A DNA stretch of 64,000 nucleotides from Ulota crispa (lineage: Eukaryota; Streptophyta; Bryopsida; Orthotrichales; Orthotrichaceae). Positions 21,104 to 60,500 of the stretch are shown piece by piece. How positions within the stretch are numbered: position 1 is the stretch's first letter; the number at the start of each line of letters is the position of its first letter. The DNA is taken from the NCBI GenBank assembly GCA_963920765.1, contig OY987251.1, forward strand, positions 3,846,501 through 3,910,500, in the 5' to 3' direction. The position numbers were made by a program, and so were the translations under genes. Below the pieces are notes generated by a model. It saw nothing but the letters and a program-made list of their open reading frames with translations. It was not told the DNA's origin and did not search any database.

Positions 21104-24100
21104 ATGTGTGGAATTCTGGCCATCCTCGGCGCCCAGGAGGAATCTCCTGCCCGGCGCGATCGTATTCTCGAGCTCTCTCGTAGGTGAGCTAGCATTTATC
21201 CTTCTTTTTTTTAGAGCCAATTTGCAATGGTTTGAGCATATTTTGAGGAGTGAGAGAATATTCGTGAGCATGCATCGGTACTTGGACCTCTGCTAGTGGC
21301 CATGCAGAAGAGTCTAGTGCTAGAGCTTGCTTGCTAGCGAAACTGGGTTGTAATTGTGTATGTTTTATGATTTTGTAGAGGATTTTGTACGTTGCAATGG
21401 CTGATTGTGGATTTGTTGTGCAGGTTGCGTCACCGAGGTCCGGACTGGAGTGGATTGTTCGTGGGGCAGAAGAGTTGGTGCTACCTGGCGCATGAGCGCT
21501 TGGCCATTATCGACCCGGCTTCGGGCGATCAGCCTCTCTACAATGGCACCAAGGACATTGTTGTTGCCGTAAGTTGATAGACCTCCTTAGTAGTACCCTT
21601 GCATAGTCAAAGCAAAGCAAAAAAAATGAACTTTGCAACAACTGTTTTTTTTTGGGTTCGCTTTACAAATTTAGTAAGTTAAGTCCCTAGTTGCGTAACT
21701 ACCAAACTAACCTGTAAGTGGTCTGTTGCATGACCGGTTTTGGTTTTTTTGCAGGCCAATGGCGAGATTTACAACCACGAGCAGCTGAAGAAGACCATGA
21801 AGGACAAGGAGTACCATACCCACTCCGACTGCGAAGTCATTGCTCACCTCGTAAGGGGCTCCCCCTCTCTCTCTCCTCTCCCTTTCCTCAAAGTTAGAAT
21901 TTCAGAGTTTTCCAACACAGTACAGCTAGAAGAATTAGTTGATTGATATTTTAAACGTTTGAAATTAAAACTTGAACGACTTTTTTCGGTTTTTTTTCAC
22001 ACTTTTGGTGTATTTTTTGTTGGGTTTTTGTTTGTGTTTGGCAGTATGAGGATGTGGGCGAAGAGGTCGTGGGCATGCTGGACGGCATGTTCTCCTTTGT
22101 ACTGGTGGACAACCGTGACAACTCCTTCATTGCCGCTCGTGACCCCATTGGCATCACCCCTCTGTACCTCGGATGGGGCTCCGACGGTACTATTCCTAAT
22201 GTTTTTTTGCACGTTGTCGATTATGAACAGAAAGTGAACAGTTTTTCATACTTATCTCTTTTTTTTAATTTTTTAATGGGTTCCAAGTTGACCAAAGTGG
22301 TGGGACTCTTGTTTGGTGGGGGCGGCGGTTACAGGAAGTGTTTGGTTTGCCTCGGAGATGAAAGCCTTGAAGGACGATTGTGAACGGTTTGAAGTTTTCC
22401 CACCTGGCCACCTCTACTCCAGCAAACATGGTTAGTAGATTAATTACTCCTGCTTCAATGTTCAGAGAAAATACAGTTTCGGACACTTCAAACCCCTATA
22501 CATGTAGAATTTTCCGTAGTGGAGAGGAGATCAAAGTCTTTCATAAAAATCTGTTGCAAATCTGAAGAGGAAGCCCCATTTCCATAGCCGATATCAGAGG
22601 CCATAGCCATATATCCAAGCTTATACTTTCCTAGTTACCAACTGAAACTCAACAATTACCGACACCTAGTATCCTCCGCCACAGCAAAAGATCTAACACT
22701 TGCGAAATGTGTGATTGAAGGAGGACTTCGCCGGTACTACAACCCACCATGGTTCTCGGAGACCTACGTTCCCACAACGCCTTACGACCCTCTGGTTCTG
22801 CGCGCCGCCTTCGAGAAGGTAATAACACTCTAAAACTACATTTTTTCTTATACAATTGCAATCTCAGTTAGTACTTCGTAACAGGAGATTGACTGACAAG
22901 TGTTGGATACGGATTTGCTCGCAGGCTGTGGTGAAGCGACTGATGACCGACGTGCCGTTCGGAGTGCTCCTCTCCGGAGGCTTAGACTCGTCACTGGTTG
23001 CGGCGGTGGCGTCCCGACATCTCGCAGGCACCAGAGCCGCAAACATCTGGGGAAAACAGCTCCACTCCTTCTGCGTTGGGCTTGAGGTACCTATAACCAA
23101 TCACACCATTAGGAAAATAGTGAGCCCTCCAAGAGTCCCTTAAGTTCTGATTCTCTTAAAATTTATTGAGCTTAACCCCACAACGCTCCGGGTATCTCAG
23201 AATACACTGAAAAGGGGGCGACTTTCTCGCCCTTGCGGCGTTGAGGGCTTAAATAGGGGTTCACTAAAAGTGTGTGAAGTGTCCCTACTTTGCGTGACTT
23301 TCCTCTTGCACAAGTACTAAGCATTGCAAAGGCATGGATATATTTTTTATGGTATTTTTGAACTTGACTTAACACAATCAAGTGTCGTATCATAATTTTT
23401 TGTAATGAATTTTAGGTGTTGTGCATGGTTGCCCTTGTTGTTTCAATTGGGACCCAACTGAAGGCTCTTAGCCATCATTACACTCAAAGTTTTGGATTAG
23501 GAAAAGTAGGTTGTAACTACGGCATTTTCCATATCCCAAAGTACAAATTAAAACCATTACTAGGACAGGAGGTTCTTTACTTTGCTAATGTCTCCGTGGT
23601 TGCAAGTTTGTGGTCAGTTTCTGAATAACTTTCGCAAGCGAACTCTTTGTATTGATGGGTTTTGTGACGAATTGCAGGGATCTCCGGACTTGAAGGCTGC
23701 GAGGGAAGTGGCTAACTACATCGGCACCCGCCATCACGAGTTTAACTTCACTGTCCAAGTGAGTGAGAGCTTCTTCTAGCACGTGAATATTTCCACAAGT
23801 TGTGTAGACTGGGTGTGTGTTGTGATTAGAATGGAGCTCGGTATTGATGGCGGATGAGCGTGTTGGTTTGCAGGAAGGGTTGGACGCGCTCTCGGAGGTG
23901 ATCTACCACGTGGAGACGTACGACGTGACGACGATCCGGGCGAGCACGCCCATGTTTCTGATGACACGCAAGATCAAAGCGCTGGGCGTGAAGATGGTGC
24001 TGTCGGGCGAGGGCTCTGATGAAATCTTCGGCGGATACCTCTACTTCCACAAGGCGCCTAACAAGGAGGAGTTCCACCACGAGCTCGTGCGCAAGATCAA

Positions 24101-25312
24101 GGCCTTGCACTTGTACGACTGCCAGCGTGCCAACAAATCCACGTCGGCCTGGGGCCTGGAGGCCCGCGTGCCGTTCCTGGACAGGGACTTCATGGAAGTC
24201 GCCATGGCTATCGACCCCGCGGAGAAGTTGATCCGCAAGGACCAGGGCCGCATTGAAAAGTGGGTCATGCGCAAAGCCTTCGACGATGAAGACAACCCCT
24301 ACTTGCCCAAGGTGTCACATTCTCCCCCTCTTCATCTCTTCCTTTTTTTTCCTTCTCTAAACCATAATCTTTCCTAGACGACTAATCATAAAAAAACAGG
24401 CCATAACCACTTCCTTCTTCAAAAAGATTCTATTCTCATTCAGATAATTCAGAACATTTTCTTGCTTGCTCTACCATTAGATACTCCAAAATTGTCCCTT
24501 TTCCATTAAAAGAATGCTAGTTAACTTAATTCGAAAAGCCCACACTGTGGAATGAGCTCATCAGTTCCATAACTGGGCTTTACCATATTTTCTTCCCGGA
24601 TTTGTTGAGGTTTAGGTAAGATCACGAAACATTTTTGCTAGTTTAGTAACGTTCAAGCCAAGAATTTAGATGGAAGTGCACGCTTTGGTTTTTCGTACAG
24701 CCAGTTTAAAGATTTGCTTAACATAGTACACAGGCATTGCAAGAATTCAGATAGAGTCCGGACTAGTTCAGGTTTTTGTGAAATCACTAAACATTGCGAA
24801 GCTTGTTGCTAATAAATCCTCTGTGGGGAAATGGGACTGTGCAGCACATTCTATACAGGCAGAAGGAGCAATTTAGCGACGGCGTGGGCTACAGCTGGAT
24901 CGACGGGCTGAAAGCGCACGCGGAGAGCCACGTGTCCAGCCAAATGCTGAAGCACGCGAAGCACGTGTACCCTTTTAACACGCCGCTGACGAAGGAGGCC
25001 TACTACTACCGCATGATCTTCGAGAAGCACTTCCCGCAGCAGTCCGCTCGGATGACCGTCCCGGGAGGCCCCAGCGTGGCCTGCAGCACGGCCACCGCTG
25101 TGGAGTGGGACAAAGCCTGGGCCGGTAACTTGGATCCCTCCGGCAGAGCAGCCCTGGGATGCCACGACGACGCCTACGCCCACAAGGATTCCAAAACTGC
25201 AAATGCCGGTGCCGGTGCCGGTACAGGTGCAAATGCAGGTGCAGCAACAGCAGCAGAGCCACTTCATGTTAACGGTGCCCTTTCCACGCCGAAATACCAG
25301 GCGGTACACTGA
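21104..25312 (+). CDS. ASN: Asparagine synthetase [glutamine-hydrolysing], ten exons
   Basis: Transfers the amide of glutamine to aspartate with ATP, giving asparagine, the main nitrogen transport compound; cytosolic. Exons: 21104-21183, 21424-21568, 21755-21850, 22045-22186, 22335-22430, 22721-22818, 22925-23086, 23678-23758, 23874-24311, 24845-25312. Together they give exactly 602 codons (601 residues) with GT-AG borders throughout. The start MCGILA puts the catalytic cysteine at residue 2 (after Met removal, Cys1). Residues 1 to about 190 form the class II glutaminase domain (HRGPD, NGEIYNH). SGGLDSS (236-242) is the pyrophosphate-binding loop of the synthetase domain, followed by [12 protein letters not shown] and the conserved KEAYYYR and VPGGPS blocks. 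The C-terminus carries an Ala/Gly/Thr-rich tail (about 565-583), so the protein is slightly longer than typical plant forms. No break seen. Confidence 0.97.
23172..23252. mobile_element. Very short TTAA-ended element in an asparagine synthetase intron
   Basis: TTAA-CCCCACAACGC on the left mirrors GCGTTGAGGGC-TTAA on the right, with 81 bp in all. The termini follow the same rule as the larger piggyBac-like elements, but at this size chance cannot be excluded. It lies in intron 7, away from the splice sites. Confidence 0.4.
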
Positions 25313-44479: not shown

Positions 44480-45160
44480 ACTTTAACAAATTTCATAAAG
44501 ATTTAAAAAGATTCTCAAAGATTCCAAAAAGGTTCTTGGAAATTCTCAGAGATTCTCAAAGATTTTTAAAATTTCAAAAAGGATTCTCAAAAGATTCACA
44601 AAGATTCCCAAAGTTTCTTAAAGATTCTCAAAGCTTCTCAAAGCTTCCAAGAAGATTTCAAGGTTATTCTTAAAGATTTTCAAAAATTCTCAAAAATTTC
44701 CTAAAAGATTTTCAAAGATTCCAAGAAGATTCTCAAAGATTCCAAAAAAACTTGAAAAGATTCCCAAAGATTTCCAAAGATTTTCAAGGATTCCAAGAAG
44801 ATTCTCAAAGATTCCAAAAAAACTTGAAAAGATTCCCAAAGATTTCCAAAGATTTTCAAGGATTCCTAAAAGATTTTCAAAGATTCTCAAAGATTCTCAA
44901 TTGTCCTCAAACATTCTCAAAGATTCCAAAAAACTTGAAAAGATTCCCAAAGATTTTCAAAGATTTTCAAAGATTCCTAAAAGATTCTCAAAGATTTCAA
45001 GAAGATTTTGATTCTAAAATCTTGAAAAGATTCTTAAACATTCCTAAAAATCTTGAGAAGATTCTCAATGATTCCCAAAAGATTCTTGAAGATTCTTAAA
45101 GATTCACAAAAGATTTTCAAAAGATTTTCAAAGATTCCAAAATTTCTGTTGATTTAGATA
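44480..45160. repeat. Minisatellite of TCAAAGATT-type units
   Basis: About 0.67 kb built of degenerate units such as AAAGATTC(C/T)CAAAGATTCC, with a higher-order block (44722-44788 and 44789-44855) repeated nearly exactly. The period avoids stop codons in several frames, so long frames appear on both strands (44752-45099, 44690-44890); they are by-products. The flanks 44168-44232 and 45205-45265 are direct repeats (GTTGAATTAGT.. and GTTAAATTAGT..), so the array may lie inside a larger mobile element. Confidence 0.8.
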
Positions 45161-48230: not shown

Positions 48231-49451
48231 ATGGCGAATGGGTACCATGATTCATACGATAACAAGATAGACTACGTGTTCAAGATTGTGCTCATTGGAG
48301 ATTCGGCAGTTGGAAAGTCGCAGCTGCTTGCTAGATTCTCCAGGAATGAGTTCACTCTTGAGTCGAAAGCCACAATTGGAGTTGAGTTCCAGACGCGTAC
48401 CATTGTTGTGGACCATAAGACCATCAAAGCTCAAATCTGGGATACAGCTGGACAAGAGAGGTATGTTTTTTTTTTTCCTTCTGTTTGATTTTCCTTGCGT
48501 TCAGTTCTAATAAAATCATCTGTCTTTGATGTAGTGCTTTTGAGCTCTCATTCTACTGTTTGAACTGTAATATCGAGCGCCTCTCGCGCTATCTTTATAG
48601 GATTTATGTGCATTGCTCAGAAAGTTTTATTCAGCACTGGACTTCTTCTGTGGATATAGCGAAGGTTTTTTGGACCTCAGTACCCAAGAAAATAAATATG
48701 GAGTCCATTTTGGAAGCTGATAATTGATTATAGTAATTTCTAAGATCAATTTCTGTTATTCGATAATGTAGGCATGATTCTTTTTCTGTAGGTGTATTAT
48801 CTTGTTCCCTTCGCATCCCGAAGTGCACAATCACTGAATTTGGTGTAATAGGGGTTAATCAACACATCTTCAGTCATTCTGTTTTCGCCCCTTTTCCAGA
48901 GATGTTGGTTGTCTTGACATTTTCCTCTGCATCTTGGTTATCTCAAAAACAATTTTATTTGGATGAACTAGTACAATCAATGATTATCCTCTCACGTCTC
49001 TGTTGACATGTCGAGCAGGTATAGGGCTGTTACAAGCGCCTATTACAGGGGTGCCGTAGGTGCGATGTTGGTCTACGACATCACAAAGCAACAGTCATTC
49101 GATCATGTTCAAAGGTGGTTGGAGGAGCTGAGAGCACACGCAGATGCCAACATCGTGATTATGCTAATCGGGAACAAGTCGGACTTGGGCAGCTTGCGGC
49201 AAGTTGACATAGATCACGCGAGAGAGTTTGCAGAGAAACAAGGGCTGTCTTTTCTCGAGACATCAGCGATGGAATCTACAAATGTGGAGACTGCGTTCTA
49301 CACTGTGTTGTCCGAAATCTACAAGATTGTCAACAAGAAGGCTCTCATTGCAGATGAAAGCCGTGGAGTTTCTCCACTCGTACCTGGAACGAGAATCAAT
49401 CTCACAGAGAAGGATGATGTCATTCCAACCAAGAAAGGACGATGCTGCTGA
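48231..49451 (+). CDS. RABA: RABA (Rab11-type) small GTPase, two exons
   Basis: Molecular switch for vesicle traffic between the trans-Golgi/recycling compartment and the plasma membrane. Exons 48231-48460 and 49019-49451 join in phase (AG|G, an Arg codon) to give 220 residues, the normal length. All GTPase motifs are present: P loop GDSAVGKS (23-30), effector loop TIGVEF (48-53), WDTAGQE (70-76), NKSD (129-132), ETSA (157-160), and C-terminal CC for double geranylgeranylation. [16 protein letters not shown] is the plant RABA signature. [10 protein letters not shown] and ESTNVETAF point to the RABA4/RABA5/RABA6 side of the family, and a tree is needed to choose. One intron at the codon just after WDTAGQE is typical of plant RABA genes. 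No damage seen. Confidence 0.96.
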
Positions 49452-53269: not shown

Positions 53270-55923
53270 ATGGACGAGAAACTTCAAGGCGAGCTCCCGC
53301 AGGTGCCGATCAAGGGGAAAGCTCTCCTCCGATCAATTCAGGTCAGTTTTGCAATGTATATTGTCTTGCGCTCTGTTGCTAAAAAACCTAGTATTTCTCA
53401 ATCAAAGCTACGATTGAATATTCCAGATTCGAGTTTTCGGACTGTGTTATTGCTAATTAGTTTTGCGTTCTTTTCTAGTATCTTATGTTCTTGAGCTGAA
53501 ATTGAAAAGCGTTGGAAAGCGTTGAAGTTGACGCTGAATCAGAAAACGAGAATGTCTCGAGCGCTGTTTATGGAAACAAGGATTGATTAGTGCTTTTTTT
53601 GGTGATAATCTTGATTTTTTGGTGCTTCGGGGTTTCAGTTGAGATGTTCTGAGGAGTTGTTCGATTGTTTTGCAGGTTAAACACGAACAGAGTTTATTGC
53701 TGCGACTGTACAACTGCTACATTTACACGCTGCGCTTGCCGCTCCCCATCTTCTTCCTCATCATGTTCTCCACGCCATTAGTCTTGAGCTTTGTCTTTAC
53801 ATCCTTCTTCTTGTTGGACGTGGACGGGCTATTCATCCCGGAGGATCGTGATTGGGGAAGGCGGAGCTGGTGGGACAACGTGTACGGCCTAGCTGGTGAG
53901 ACTCACTTTAAGGTGTTCATCTTTAGCCTGTCGTTGTGCACCACATTTGGAGGGACAGGTGTTGAAGCTCGCTCGCCCTACAACCTTCTTCTGGCCAATT
54001 TGAATACGTTGACGGCTCAGCTCATTTTTGTCTTCCTCAGTGGCGCAGGTATGCTCATTGTCATGGTTGCTATTATATCAATTCGCAAATGGCTTTATTC
54101 TTGTTGTGGTCGCTGCCTCACTTATTAAGGTAGGAGGTTCTAAAATGGAGCACTTAACCCCTGAAGGGCCCTTGGACCATAGAGATACGGTACCAAATAC
54201 GGTCGCAATTAATATTCAGAAGTTTGAATTAGCTGGAAATTAAGTGTTACAACCATACATATTGAAGGGTTGTATGATGGTGGGTGCATAATTTTTTTGG
54301 AAAGTCCTCAGAGCAGCTCAAATACGGCTGTATATACGGCCGTACATACGGCCAGAGATGGCTGATGGGCCGTTCAAGGGTTAAGGGCTGAAACTGAATT
54401 TGGGGATGTGAAATTTCTTGAAATATTTTTCAGTAAAATTTCTTTGAAAGACAAGAGGAATCGGCATCTAACCAAATTTGTTTCATATTTTTTGAAGCTT
54501 TGTGGAATTAGTTATGAAATTTTGAAGTGGGAAGGCTATAGGTCTCTAAAGTGGTGCACCTCCTCAAATGTACATTGCCTGTACATTGTTGAAGGGCTAT
54601 GAAAAGCAACATGCACAAATTACGTACATTTGAGGAGGTGCACCATGTTAGAGCATGCACCATTTTAGAACCTCCTACCCTAAGAAGGATGACCTGATAG
54701 GAATTCGTTGTCGTTGCACGTGTGCAGTGTTTTACAGATTGTCGCAGCCTGCGGAGCCAGTTCGTTGGGCTAAAATGGCGCTCATTACCAACGACAAGTT
54801 CACTGAACATGCAAATAATCTGTTAGCACCTGGCGAAAAGCCGCACAAGTAAGTTTTGCCAGGAACTTGTCTTGGATTTGTGCCTGTAGCTGCTTTATTG
54901 TGTTAGTAACATTTATTTATTCCAGTGGTTTGATCTTGTGGTGTCTCTAGTGTTGAATGGTGGAAGTATTGTGTACAAACTCCATAGAATCAATGCCGGT
55001 GCTGAGCTCTAGACCCTAATGATTTCTCATTGTAAGACTATGTACTGTACCTTGAATGACCTAATTTACCGACGGAGGGTGACGCATCTTTCTTTAAATC
55101 GTTCTTGCATTCCGTTGCATGCCGGTTTTATGTTATCTCGGTAAGCTCGTTGACATTATTATATGTGCACCTTCGAATGGTGTGTAATGCTTTCGATTTT
55201 CTGTCAAATTTTATGTTCTTCAATCTGCTTACCAGAAAAGAGAAATTTTACTCTCGACGAGTTACTGACTTACTGACTTGAAGTACGAAAAACGTGCAGA
55301 TCCTTCATCGTTCGAGTAAATCTGGCAGATCCAGCAAAGGTGGTGTTGATCGAGTGCAAGTTTGAGATCATCTACCGATGCATTGTGACTGAGGCTGGTC
55401 AAACCTCTCCGTTCGTCCACCATGTTTCTCTCCAGCTGGTGCGGCCAGAGGTCTCCTATCTCAGATTTGGCCTTATCGTTCGACACATTATTGACGATTC
55501 TAGTCCACTTTGTGGAATGGACTTTGAGGTGGGAAACATATCATACGTTAGTTTACTTCAAGAGCAATTGCTAATTTAAGCAGGATACTAATATATAACA
55601 TATACATACTGGCAGTGCTTTTTCAAATTAGAGCTTTCCATCTGAAATGACTGACTGTGGGTGTGTTTTGCAAGGCGTTAAAAGCGAGGGATGCTTCATT
55701 TACTGTTACAATGTCAGGAACCGAGCGATCATCCATGCAACCAGTCTTTAGTGAGAACTTGTATGCCGTTGTCGACGGAGATGTTATCTGGGACCGGCAA
55801 TACGAAGACCAGCTTTTGAGGGACAAGCAGGGGCGCACTATCTTCTCTGCAAATATGTTGAACCGCTTGAAGCCTTTGAATGAAGAGCGCGGCGATAGCA
55901 ATATACAAAAAAAGACAGCCTAA
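53270..55923 (+). CDS. Inward-rectifier (Kir/IRK family) channel-like protein with altered filter, five exons
   Basis: Exons 53270-53341, 53676-54048, 54728-54848, 55300-55528, 55675-55923 have GT-AG borders and join in phase to 347 residues. Order: short cytosolic N-terminus, first membrane helix (about 46-71), pore helix (102-113), filter region (114-118), second helix (127-151, then FYRLSQP), and a C-terminal beta-rich domain. HIIDDSSPL (251-259) and the late IWDRQYEDQL (303-312) are the marks of the Kir C-terminal domain (compare HVIDESSPL and the I(L/R)W..RF motif in Kir and KirBac). The family forms tetrameric potassium channels. Here the pore aligns without gaps but TVGYG is replaced by TFGGT (114-118), so potassium selectivity is doubtful. 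Intron 2 is filled with nested MITEs. Function unknown; could be a non-selective channel, a silent subunit, or no longer a channel. Confidence 0.85.
54154..54384. mobile_element. piggyBac-like MITE nested in the outer intron element
   Basis: TTAA-CCCCTGAAGGGCCC mirrors GGGCCGTTCAAGGG-TTAA; 231 bp. The interior has repeated TACGG words (ATACGGCTGTATATACGGCC), forming small inner palindromes. Confidence 0.75.
54547..54651. repeat. Inner inverted repeat in intron 2 of the channel gene
   Basis: TGGTGCACCTCCTCAAATGTAC pairs with GTACATTTGAGGAGGTGCACC around a loop of about 50 bases. It may be a separate small MITE or an inner part of the outer element. Confidence 0.65.
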
Positions 55924-57352: not shown

Positions 57353-57534
57353 GAGCATTCTTTTATTTTCTGGGTTTTTATGGGATTGTTATAGGGTTTG
57401 TATATCCTAATGGGCGTCTAACAAAAAATCGATTTTTTTTCTTGGTTGGCCCTTTTGTGGGGCCTGTTGAAGGGCCGAAGTAGTTCTGAAAAGAAAGTGT
57501 TCCGGTTCGATGATCCATGTAAACAGATCACAGT

Positions 57535-60500
57535 ATGGCTCTTTGTAAGGAGCTCACTTCATCAGCAAGGTATTCTGCCAGGACCAACGATGCTTTCATC
57601 TCAACTTTCCAAAGTCCACGTCCGACCGCCACATTCTTTACGAATTTTGTGGCTTGTAGAGGACTCCGGGCTCCGGTGACGAATGGCACCAACGCGGAAT
57701 TCAAGCAATGGCGAATTAGGGCAGTGCAATTTGATGAGAGTGCGAATTTGCAAAGGTTCTACGCGACTTGCGAGGAAGGATTGGAGGAGATCCTGGCTGC
57801 CGAGCTTTCGTCTCCCCTCATCAACGTCTCGCAGGTAGAATTAGGGTTTGGTGGAGTGTCCTTTGTCGGCACTCAGAGGACGGGATATAACGCCAATCTT
57901 TGGCTGCGCACTGCAGACCGCGTGCTGTGTGAGCTCGCCCGCGGGCTCTTGCCTAAGGGCCGAATCGGAATTTACGACTTTGTGAGAGCAGCTGCAGATT
58001 GGCCTTTACTTCTCGTTGACGATGCCACACCTCGAATTTCACAATCAGGTGAGTATATTCTACCTTCTTCCTGTTACATAAAGGGAAAATTTCATGGATA
58101 CCCCTGAAGTTTGCCATATTTTCATAGATACCCCTGCTTTTTCAGAAAATTCACAAATACCCTTGGACCAAAAAATTTAGGCGTTTGTTTTGGTGTGCAT
58201 GTTACTTCCTTCTTCCTTTGTGCGCACATATAACAAGAAAGTAGCGTGCGTGTAAAGGGAGAAGGAAGTGACATGCACAACAAAACGAAGGCCTGAAAAT
58301 TTTGGTCCAAGGGTATTTGTGAAATTTCTGAAAAAGCAGGGGTATCTATGAAAATATGGCAAACTTCAAGGGTATCCATGAAATTTTCCCTTGATACTAT
58401 TGTTCACGTAATTTTTTTGATAAAGCATGCACTGAAAAGTAGCTTCTCTTAGAGTGTTGTGCGGGCTTGTTAGAATGCCACAATTCTCGCTTCGTAGTGT
58501 TTTGATTCGCTAAAGTTAAGGTTGTAGGGTTTAAGGTTTAAGCTCTTTGGATGTCCGGCCGTTGTGTGTGTCATTCTCTAGCGCACTTATGGAGATATAA
58601 GGGAGTGGATATTTTTTGCGTAGCTTTAAGCATTTTAACCAGTATGTATGTAAGATTGTGCTTTCATTGAGGAGATTGCTAAATAAAGCTCACTCAACTA
58701 CCGAGATCACTTTGGGTACTACAAGAGCCAAAGCCTCGTTGAGATTAAGTTTTAGTAACTCAATGTATGAATTCTTATGCAGTTCCAGTGTGAAGTTACA
58801 GACCACTATCAAAGAAACAGTAGACGACTCCATTTTCTATTCAAAGATGAGGGGACAGATCATCAAACCCGCCCGCCGGTAGAAACTTTGTGGGTTCTAC
58901 CCTGCATGTAGAACCCGCAGCTTCTCTCGTATGATAGGGGAGTTAGAATACGTCCATGGCTAGAATTCGATCGACCATTCAGTGACACAATCTACATGAC
59001 AGACAGAAAAATAATTGGGTGGGGGAAAGACTCAATTTTAGTATTAAGTTAGGTGAGAATTGGGTGGAAAAAGATTCAACTTTTTATGTTAAGATAGGTG
59101 AGTGGCCATCCACCAATTTGGCCAAGTCGTGGTCGTGACTACATATTTTTTTGCTAATTCAAAGCCAACCAAGTGTATTGGAATAGACAAGTTGCTATTG
59201 GTAACAAAGGTCAGTTATCAGAATATGGGATCAGGGTTCCCAACTGATGGTTTTGCTATCCTCCTTATGTGCAGCAAAGCGCTACAAACTCCGGAAATTC
59301 TCAGTTCAAATCAAATTACAAAATTCCGCTGATAACCACGCTTTGGTGTCCACTAGCGTGAGCAACGCAATCTGGGACTCGCTTCGTGATGGTTGTGGTC
59401 GACAGTGGCCTGAAAAAGAAGACGCAGTGAGCGTTCCTCTCGTTTTCCACGTGGACGGAGACTCGGCAGTTCTGTATCGAGATATGAGTGGGGTGAGCTT
59501 GTACAAGCGTGGGTATGGCGACACCACCACCACCACCACCACGGTTCAGTCGAAGGAGGGATTGGCAGCTGCCGTTTTGACAATTGCTGGGTGGAATCCC
59601 ATGGTGTTGGGATTTGGTGAAGCTAACAAGAATCCTACCCAAGACAAAAACCGAGTTCTTCTAGATCCCTTTTGTGGAACTGGGACTTTTCTTATACAAG
59701 CTGCTCTTATGGCGACTCACGTTGCACCTGGTTTGATGCGGCGACACTGGCCTTTCCAGGTAAGTAGAGTAGGATGTTGCTGTATTTTATACGATCTCCT
59801 GTGTTGTATACCGATGGGGTATTTGGGTAGCACATGAATCTCATTGGAGCTGTAAGTTTTAATCCAAGTCACAAACATACTACCGGTCACATAGGATTTA
59901 TTGAGAAAGTTTTTACATTTGTTTTAAAGCCTTTTTTTTCAAGTACTAAATGGTCCTCGTATGAATACAGCCAACACTTTGGGTAGACAACATCCTTTAG
60001 GGGTGAAGAAGCAAATGTCTGATATCAGGGTAAGGGCAGGCTTCCATGTGTCGGTGCCGTTGGAGAAGAGATGATCCAATGCGCTTACCGGAAGTTGGTA
60101 AAAGTTGGCGAACAAAGGTTTTGTCAAACACTTCGTAGGGAGGAAACAAGGGAAATTGTCAAGGAAATCTGATATGTGCTGAATTTCATAATGTGCTGTT
60201 GCCATCGATTTTGTAAATAAATAGCACAAGTGGATTTTTTAATCCAAATTGGGTGTATTATACACAGTTGGAAAGAAAATCTCTCTATGTTGGAAAATAT
60301 CTTCCCAATTTTTATATTACATGCCCCATTTGGAACAAAATAGCAGTTTCTCCGTACTTGTTTATAGACGGTCACTTAATTGTTGTGGCCTGTAGGTCAA
60401 TTTCAATCAGTGAAATTGGCCAAGTTCTTAGACAAAACATTATTCTTAAAACACAAAGACAAGCTTGAATCATGCTGACCAAGTTTGCCGGTTCTTTGAT

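Follow-up and report, generated by a model that had tools for sequence, protein, structure and literature searches.

The window, a stretch of 64,000 nucleotides from the moss Ulota crispa, carries on its plus strand a gene of five exons, which join into 1,044 bases, that is, 347 codons and a stop. This five-exon frame had been proposed by the first-pass annotation, and when the splice model was re-derived its exon coordinates proved exact to the base; all four introns (334, 679, 451 and 146 bases; phases 0, 1, 2 and 0) run from GT to AG. Exon 1 (53270-53341) encodes residues 1-24, an N-terminal tail with a glycine, G16, that is near-invariant in the family alignment. Exon 2 (53676-54048; residues 25-148 and the first base of codon 149), placed by the splice model and a match in the same genome, holds the slide helix, TM1, the pore helix, the filter and most of TM2, as judged from an AlphaFold2 model of the homologue P0001. 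Within it, the pore helix (53898-53942, about residues 99-113) includes the family-invariant residues S110, L111 and T113, and is followed by the codons of T114-F115-G116-G117-T118 at 53943-53957, which replace TxGYG in alignments to chain 1p7b and to bacterial-type Kirs, and by TM2 up to residue 148 (53976-54047). TM2 ends at about residue 154 in exon 3 (54728-54848; the rest of codon 149, residues 150-188 and part of 189), together with the gate phenylalanine F150 and an SQPAEP linker. The cytoplasmic beta domain is divided between exon 4 (55300-55528; the rest of codon 189 and residues 190-265) and exon 5 (55675-55923; residues 266-347 and the stop). The HIIDDSSPL block noted earlier was found in the translation of exon 4, and the IWDRQYEDQL block in that of exon 5, along with SSMQPVF. 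Since the 349 residues of P0001 form one frame on a contig of 1,545 bases, less than the window gene measures with introns included, and since P0019 and P0021 bear transcript-assembly names, we infer that relatives of the gene have spliced transcripts.

Inspection of the surroundings by eye only showed a Rab GTPase-like frame at 48984-49451, an asparagine synthetase-like frame at about 23826-25312 and a frame resembling a THUMP-type RNA methyltransferase at 57523-59837. A 141-codon frame at 44674-45099, also seen by eye, is made of KDFQRF-type repeat units and is probably a tandem repeat, not a gene. Intron 2 (54049-54727; phase 1, after codon 148, as read from the sequence) contains a MITE-like element at 54121-54687, to which no strand was assigned, with 32-nt terminal inverted repeats (54121-54152 and 54656-54687, 91% complementary). 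With up to 2 mismatches allowed, a 20-nt pattern from these termini gave 815 genome-wide matches and its reversed control none, which marks the element as native to this genome; within the window no further copy of the repeat was found at up to 3 mismatches, and it is confined to intron 2. The earlier statement that the introns share the MITE families of the window therefore holds genome-wide for one element, and is not borne out for that repeat elsewhere in the window. Contamination or recent transfer was considered and rejected in view of the introns, the element with its 815 matches and the plant-like look, by eye only, of neighbouring frames.

In a Pfam search, the 347-residue protein matched IRK_C over residues 196-320 (27.2 bits, cut-off 22.5) and gave no match to the transmembrane model IRK at E up to 1, so that only the first of the two matches looked for was obtained. 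The same pattern was observed in the family: IRK_C was matched in all 22 aligned members at E up to 0.01 (in the fern protein P0047, at 18.4 bits, below the cut-off), and IRK was absent (0/22) among the three Pfam families that these members matched. The controls P0057, P0065 and P0074 do match IRK. NCBIfam gave no match for any of four proteins, the canonical Kir P0057 included. Homology to Kirs over the whole length was observed by profile comparison with 24 bacterial-type Kirs (hhalign probability 99.9, E 2.5e-34, 286 columns). The AlphaFold2 model of P0001, whose numbering is one higher than that of the window protein, has the Kir fold, with a slide helix, two transmembrane helices with a pore helix between them, and a cytoplasmic beta-sandwich. 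P0001, P0002 and P0003 are full-length homologues at 79-82% identity, one of them named, from Ceratodon purpureus; with the IRK_C score, they place the resemblance well beyond chance. We regard it as nearly certain that the gene belongs to the Kir superfamily and that its filter loss is fixed.

The filter was assessed in an alignment of 143 rows, comprising 4 proteins of U. crispa itself, 36 of 53 family proteins (17 partial or odd ones were omitted), 25 canonical streptophyte-type Kirs and 78 further Kirs taken as bacterial. T114 to T118 align without a gap with TVGYG of 1p7b (residues 110-114), which we take to be KirBac1.1, and with the profile of the 24 bacterial-type Kirs; against canonical streptophyte Kirs the aligners insert gaps directly after the filter, and the gap-free alignment first described does not extend to these. 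A TxG[Y/F]G filter occurs in none of the 40 aligned family rows, and GYG is found nowhere in any of the 53 family proteins. Instead, 33/40 rows read F-G-G-[T/A/S], three are one residue off (FNGT, FGAS, FAGS), and four have a filter one residue shorter and without TxG; T114 itself is not strictly kept, with a weighted frequency of about 0.79 in the family. As controls, TIG[Y/F]G is present in every one of the 23 canonical rows, out of 25, in which this region is covered, and [T/S]xG[Y/F]G in 77 of the 78 bacterial-type rows. The homologues thus share the lost GYG and none has an intact one (0/53), which answers the concern that GGT is a sequencing error.

The four shorter filters belong to one of the proteins of U. 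crispa (G000:C1:16505855-16508599, L021) and to P0049, P0031 and P0034, and read STGLQPxxAPLSP or ST/CTSLQT. These members are possibly another pore type, and since 4/40 filters lack TxG, even the inner filter sites may have been lost in one subclade. The single bacterial-type exception, P0108 (312 aa), groups with bacterial-type Kirs and matches IRK_C strongly (97.5 bits), with SLNSP in place of TxGYG; filter loss may therefore have occurred elsewhere too.

Among the matches listed, at least 53 family proteins were found (38 and 15 further), with named sources in mosses (Ceratodon, Sphagnum, Physcomitrium), ferns (Adiantum, Ceratopteris) and the genera Closterium and Klebsormidium; two further sets of locus names we read as Mesotaenium and Spirogloea. 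Homologues were accordingly found in mosses, ferns and streptophyte algae; among the matches listed, none is labelled as coming from a liverwort, hornwort, lycophyte or seed plant. With two short patterns and tblastn, no relative was observed in prokaryotic genomes (126 pattern matches) or viral contigs (37 pattern matches). Some members are named 'Inward rectifier potassium channel ...' in databases, evidently from the domain. P0039-P0048 (718-930 aa; the ferns P0040, P0046 and P0047 among them) have N-terminal extensions of several hundred residues, which are absent from the moss window protein, and STSFTRA stands near the C-terminus in the four of them that were read (P0039, P0040, P0047, P0048).

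The genome of U. crispa (274.8 Mb) holds at least four family members, on contigs C10 (the window), C6, C9 and C1. The paralogues have the filters TAFGGT (C6), TTFGGS (C9) and the shorter GLQP type (C1), and C9 falls into a clade with named ferns (support 100/97). All four have a splice-like phase 1 junction after the codon matching residue 148, and because this junction is common to them the copies are probably old. Far from being the remnant of a single lineage, the family is spread among streptophytes, and U. crispa alone has four copies or more.

A Pfam IRK search of the same genome also identified a canonical Kir, an uninterrupted frame of 526 residues with the filter TIGYGG at 24313-24314 kb of contig C4. 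Its GC content (G000:C4:24313496-24314389; L001, L017, L018) is 52-61% in a region that is mostly 30-49%, and about 6 kb away lies a frame that by eye resembles a 5'-3' exoribonuclease. The high GC had raised the suspicion of a contaminant, which was rejected since the frame lies inside a 25.7-Mb contig and has homologues in Ceratodon, Physcomitrium and liverworts. Its named relatives are from Ceratodon, Physcomitrium, Marchantia, Riccia, Calypogeia, the chlorophyte Cymbomonas, Klebsormidium ('Inward rectifier K+ channel') and Chara ('ATP-activated inward rectifier K channel').

Streptophytes carry two kinds of Kir. In a tree of 72 rows from which the filter columns had been removed, each plant kind forms one side of a branch with 100/100 support, and profile comparison places the family closer to bacterial-type Kirs (2.5e-34), the canonical streptophyte Kir being more distant (6.8e-17). 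AU tests did not reach rejection either for uniting both plant families (p 0.362) or for joining P0108, the Kir with the altered filter, to the family (p 0.308). Both kinds include named members from Ceratodon, Physcomitrium and Klebsormidium; among the named matches listed, ferns are found in the filter-less family only and liverworts in the canonical kind only.

The window gene is under purifying selection. Against the C6 paralogue, dN and dS over 312 codons were 0.169 and 1.161 (NG86) or 0.170 and 1.048 (YN00), a ratio of about 0.15 that is rough, as dS, at around 1.1, approaches saturation. Taken with the relatives that share the lost GYG, this agrees with the proposal of the first-pass annotation that an IRK-type protein persists in the moss lineage. 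An explanation by decay into a pseudogene or by sequencing artefact, which has nothing in its favour beyond the unusual filter, is ruled out for practical purposes by the low ratio, the intact frame and splice sites, the three further paralogues and the homologues with the same filter.

Mean column entropy was compared over five segments, lower values indicating stronger conservation. In the family, TM2 was the most conserved of the five (0.65 vs 0.99 for the filter, a value raised by the four shorter filters), whereas the filter was the most conserved segment both in canonical Kirs (0.06 vs 0.97 for TM2) and in bacterial-type Kirs (0.45 vs 1.44). Twelve of the 31 TM2 columns are invariant in the family, or 11 if residue 148 (G) of C9, omitted from its joined piece, is counted. 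This conservation is helical: 66 of 10,000 shuffles were as strong, against 1,063 for canonical and 4,800 for bacterial-type Kirs. By the helical-moment test, the conserved face carries T135, Q139, F142, S146 and F150, the first four of which are presumably pore-facing, going by work on Kir2.1; compared with the other TM2 positions, these five did not stand out significantly (3,957 of 53,130 subsets, 0.0745). N132, Q139 and S146 are family-invariant polar residues of TM2, spaced seven apart. F150 is invariant in the aligned family rows and aligns with residue 146 of 1p7b; F146 is given as the bundle-crossing gate of KirBac1.1 in the part of PMC4919593 available to us, so that by alignment the protein has an aromatic residue at the position of this gate. 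As far as sequence can indicate, the earlier suggestion that selection acts on a property other than K+ selectivity is supported.

Beyond TM2, the cytoplasmic acidic residues are kept (D299 in 39/39, D/E301 in 38/39). Basic residues after TM2 are lipid contacts, and those at the foot of TM2 are mostly lost in the family: position 155 is Q in 36/40 rows vs R in 78/78 bacterial-type rows, and position 159 is P in 35/40 vs R in 25/25 canonical rows, with R152 kept in 40/40.

The gene is best explained as a member of an old streptophyte Kir/KirBac clade that lacks TxGYG throughout and mostly reads TTFGG[T/A/S] in the members examined. Its product would assemble as a Kir-type tetramer with a slide helix, TM1, a pore helix, TM2 with F150 and a cytoplasmic beta-sandwich pore; that it forms a pore as a tetramer is, on the predicted fold of the homologue, probable. 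The filter keeps its inner part, T-x-G (which makes sites S4-S3), as it does in most of the family, and lacks the outer YG (S2-S1), as in NaK and CNG channels. Because the outer YG is lost and T-x-G kept as in those channels, little or no K+ selectivity would be expected, and cations would pass with little discrimination; by this analogy we put conduction of that kind at even chances. With the filter lost, permeation would be shaped instead by T135, Q139, F142, S146 and F150; as a counterpoint to conduction, the inner pore could be constricted or blocked by F142 and F150. A gate in TM2 would be worked by the Kir-type cytoplasmic domain, under a lipid control that would be altered, since basic residues have been lost from the foot of TM2. 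In mosses, ferns and streptophyte algae, the filter would have been relaxed and selection would have moved to the inner pore helix. A streptophyte channel class in which the Kir fold is uncoupled from K+ selectivity and serves as a gated pore that lets other cations, or solutes, through is a reading whose chances we judge to be balanced, and as part of it the class may, if descent was vertical, be older than the point at which Klebsormidium and the land-plant line diverged.

It is possible, at somewhat better than one chance in four, that the Kir fold is kept around a pore that does not conduct, the protein serving, by way of its cytoplasmic domain, as a sensor or scaffold at the membrane, or else damping canonical GYG Kirs as a silent subunit of mixed tetramers. 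The loss of the outer filter, the phenylalanines on the conserved TM2 face and the changes at its foot (Q155 in 36/40, P159 in 35/40) would all fit such a role, as would the naming of Ceratodon, Physcomitrium and Klebsormidium in both kinds of Kir. A pure scaffold, however, would not need TM2 to be the most constrained segment measured, on the very face that bears the gate residue. Mixed tetramers are also unlikely to be a general role, given ferns without a named canonical Kir and liverworts without a named family member among the matches listed; since the named ferns and the named liverworts each occur in one kind only, an obligate mixed tetramer is disfavoured. A channel selective for ammonium, a divalent cation, an anion or a small neutral solute, its choice set by N132, Q139, F142 and S146, seems to us unlikely, although the chemistry of TxGYG is lost, subclades differ in the outer filter and N132, Q139 and S146 are invariant in TM2. 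Anions in particular are disfavoured by the retained D299 and D/E301.

The Kir fold hardly ever occurs without GYG (77/78 bacterial-type and 23/23 canonical rows have the signature), and this clade keeps the fold and the gate residue without it, having apparently dropped GYG before land plants; it amounts to a natural experiment on a Kir pore without its filter. Because further mosses, as well as ferns and streptophyte algae, have relatives with the same filter loss, the sequences suggest an old plant channel class with a different job, apparently unstudied. A predicted channel family is thereby added for mosses and ferns. The question is directly testable with the relatives in Ceratodon and Physcomitrium, two mosses for which knock-out methods are well established. 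In the open-licence PMC literature no paper on the clade was found by title or abstract start among the matches listed, and earlier work is possible; the part of PMC4565715 available to us mentions Kir once, setting it apart from voltage-gated channels.

Among known systems, plant KCO3 and the TPK channels resemble the window protein in having a two-helix pore unit. In the accessible part of PMC8619664, plant 'Kir-like' means KCO3, which is counted there among the TPK channels as a member with a single pore and has a GFGD filter; the window protein has IRK_C, and neither a Pfam Ion_trans_2 match nor a G[Y/F]GD filter (it reads TTFGGT). Membership of KCO3/TPK was rejected on these grounds, and the first-pass annotation was right to set KCO3-type 'Kir-like' proteins apart. 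In contrast to that usage, plants hold true Kir-type proteins, and of two kinds.

KirBac1.1 and KirBac3.1 differ from the window protein in having TVGYG where it has TFGGT, Q/E behind the filter where it has S110, R at 155 and R/K at 159 where Q and P are mostly found here, and in lacking its TM2 face of T/Q/F/S/F. The canonical streptophyte Kir (C4, Marchantia, Chara, Klebsormidium) shares IRK_C, the superfamily and some genomes with the family, but it keeps TIG[YF]G, forms a separate clade (100/100) and is farther away by profile than bacterial-type Kirs. NaK and CNG channels are not Kir proteins. The likeness to them would be one of working only, a K+-channel-type pore that keeps T-x-G and has lost the outer YG, as here. 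In the parts of the sources available to us, a CNG-mimic filter reads T-T-V-G-E-T (PMC6091977), against T-T-F-G-G-T here, and NaK with TVGDGN, in which S3 and S4 are the sole remaining sites, does not select among cations, becoming K+ selective when its filter is changed to TVGYGD (PMC9822992). An acidic residue replaces the tyrosine in NaK and CNG, whereas a glycine takes its place in the window protein.
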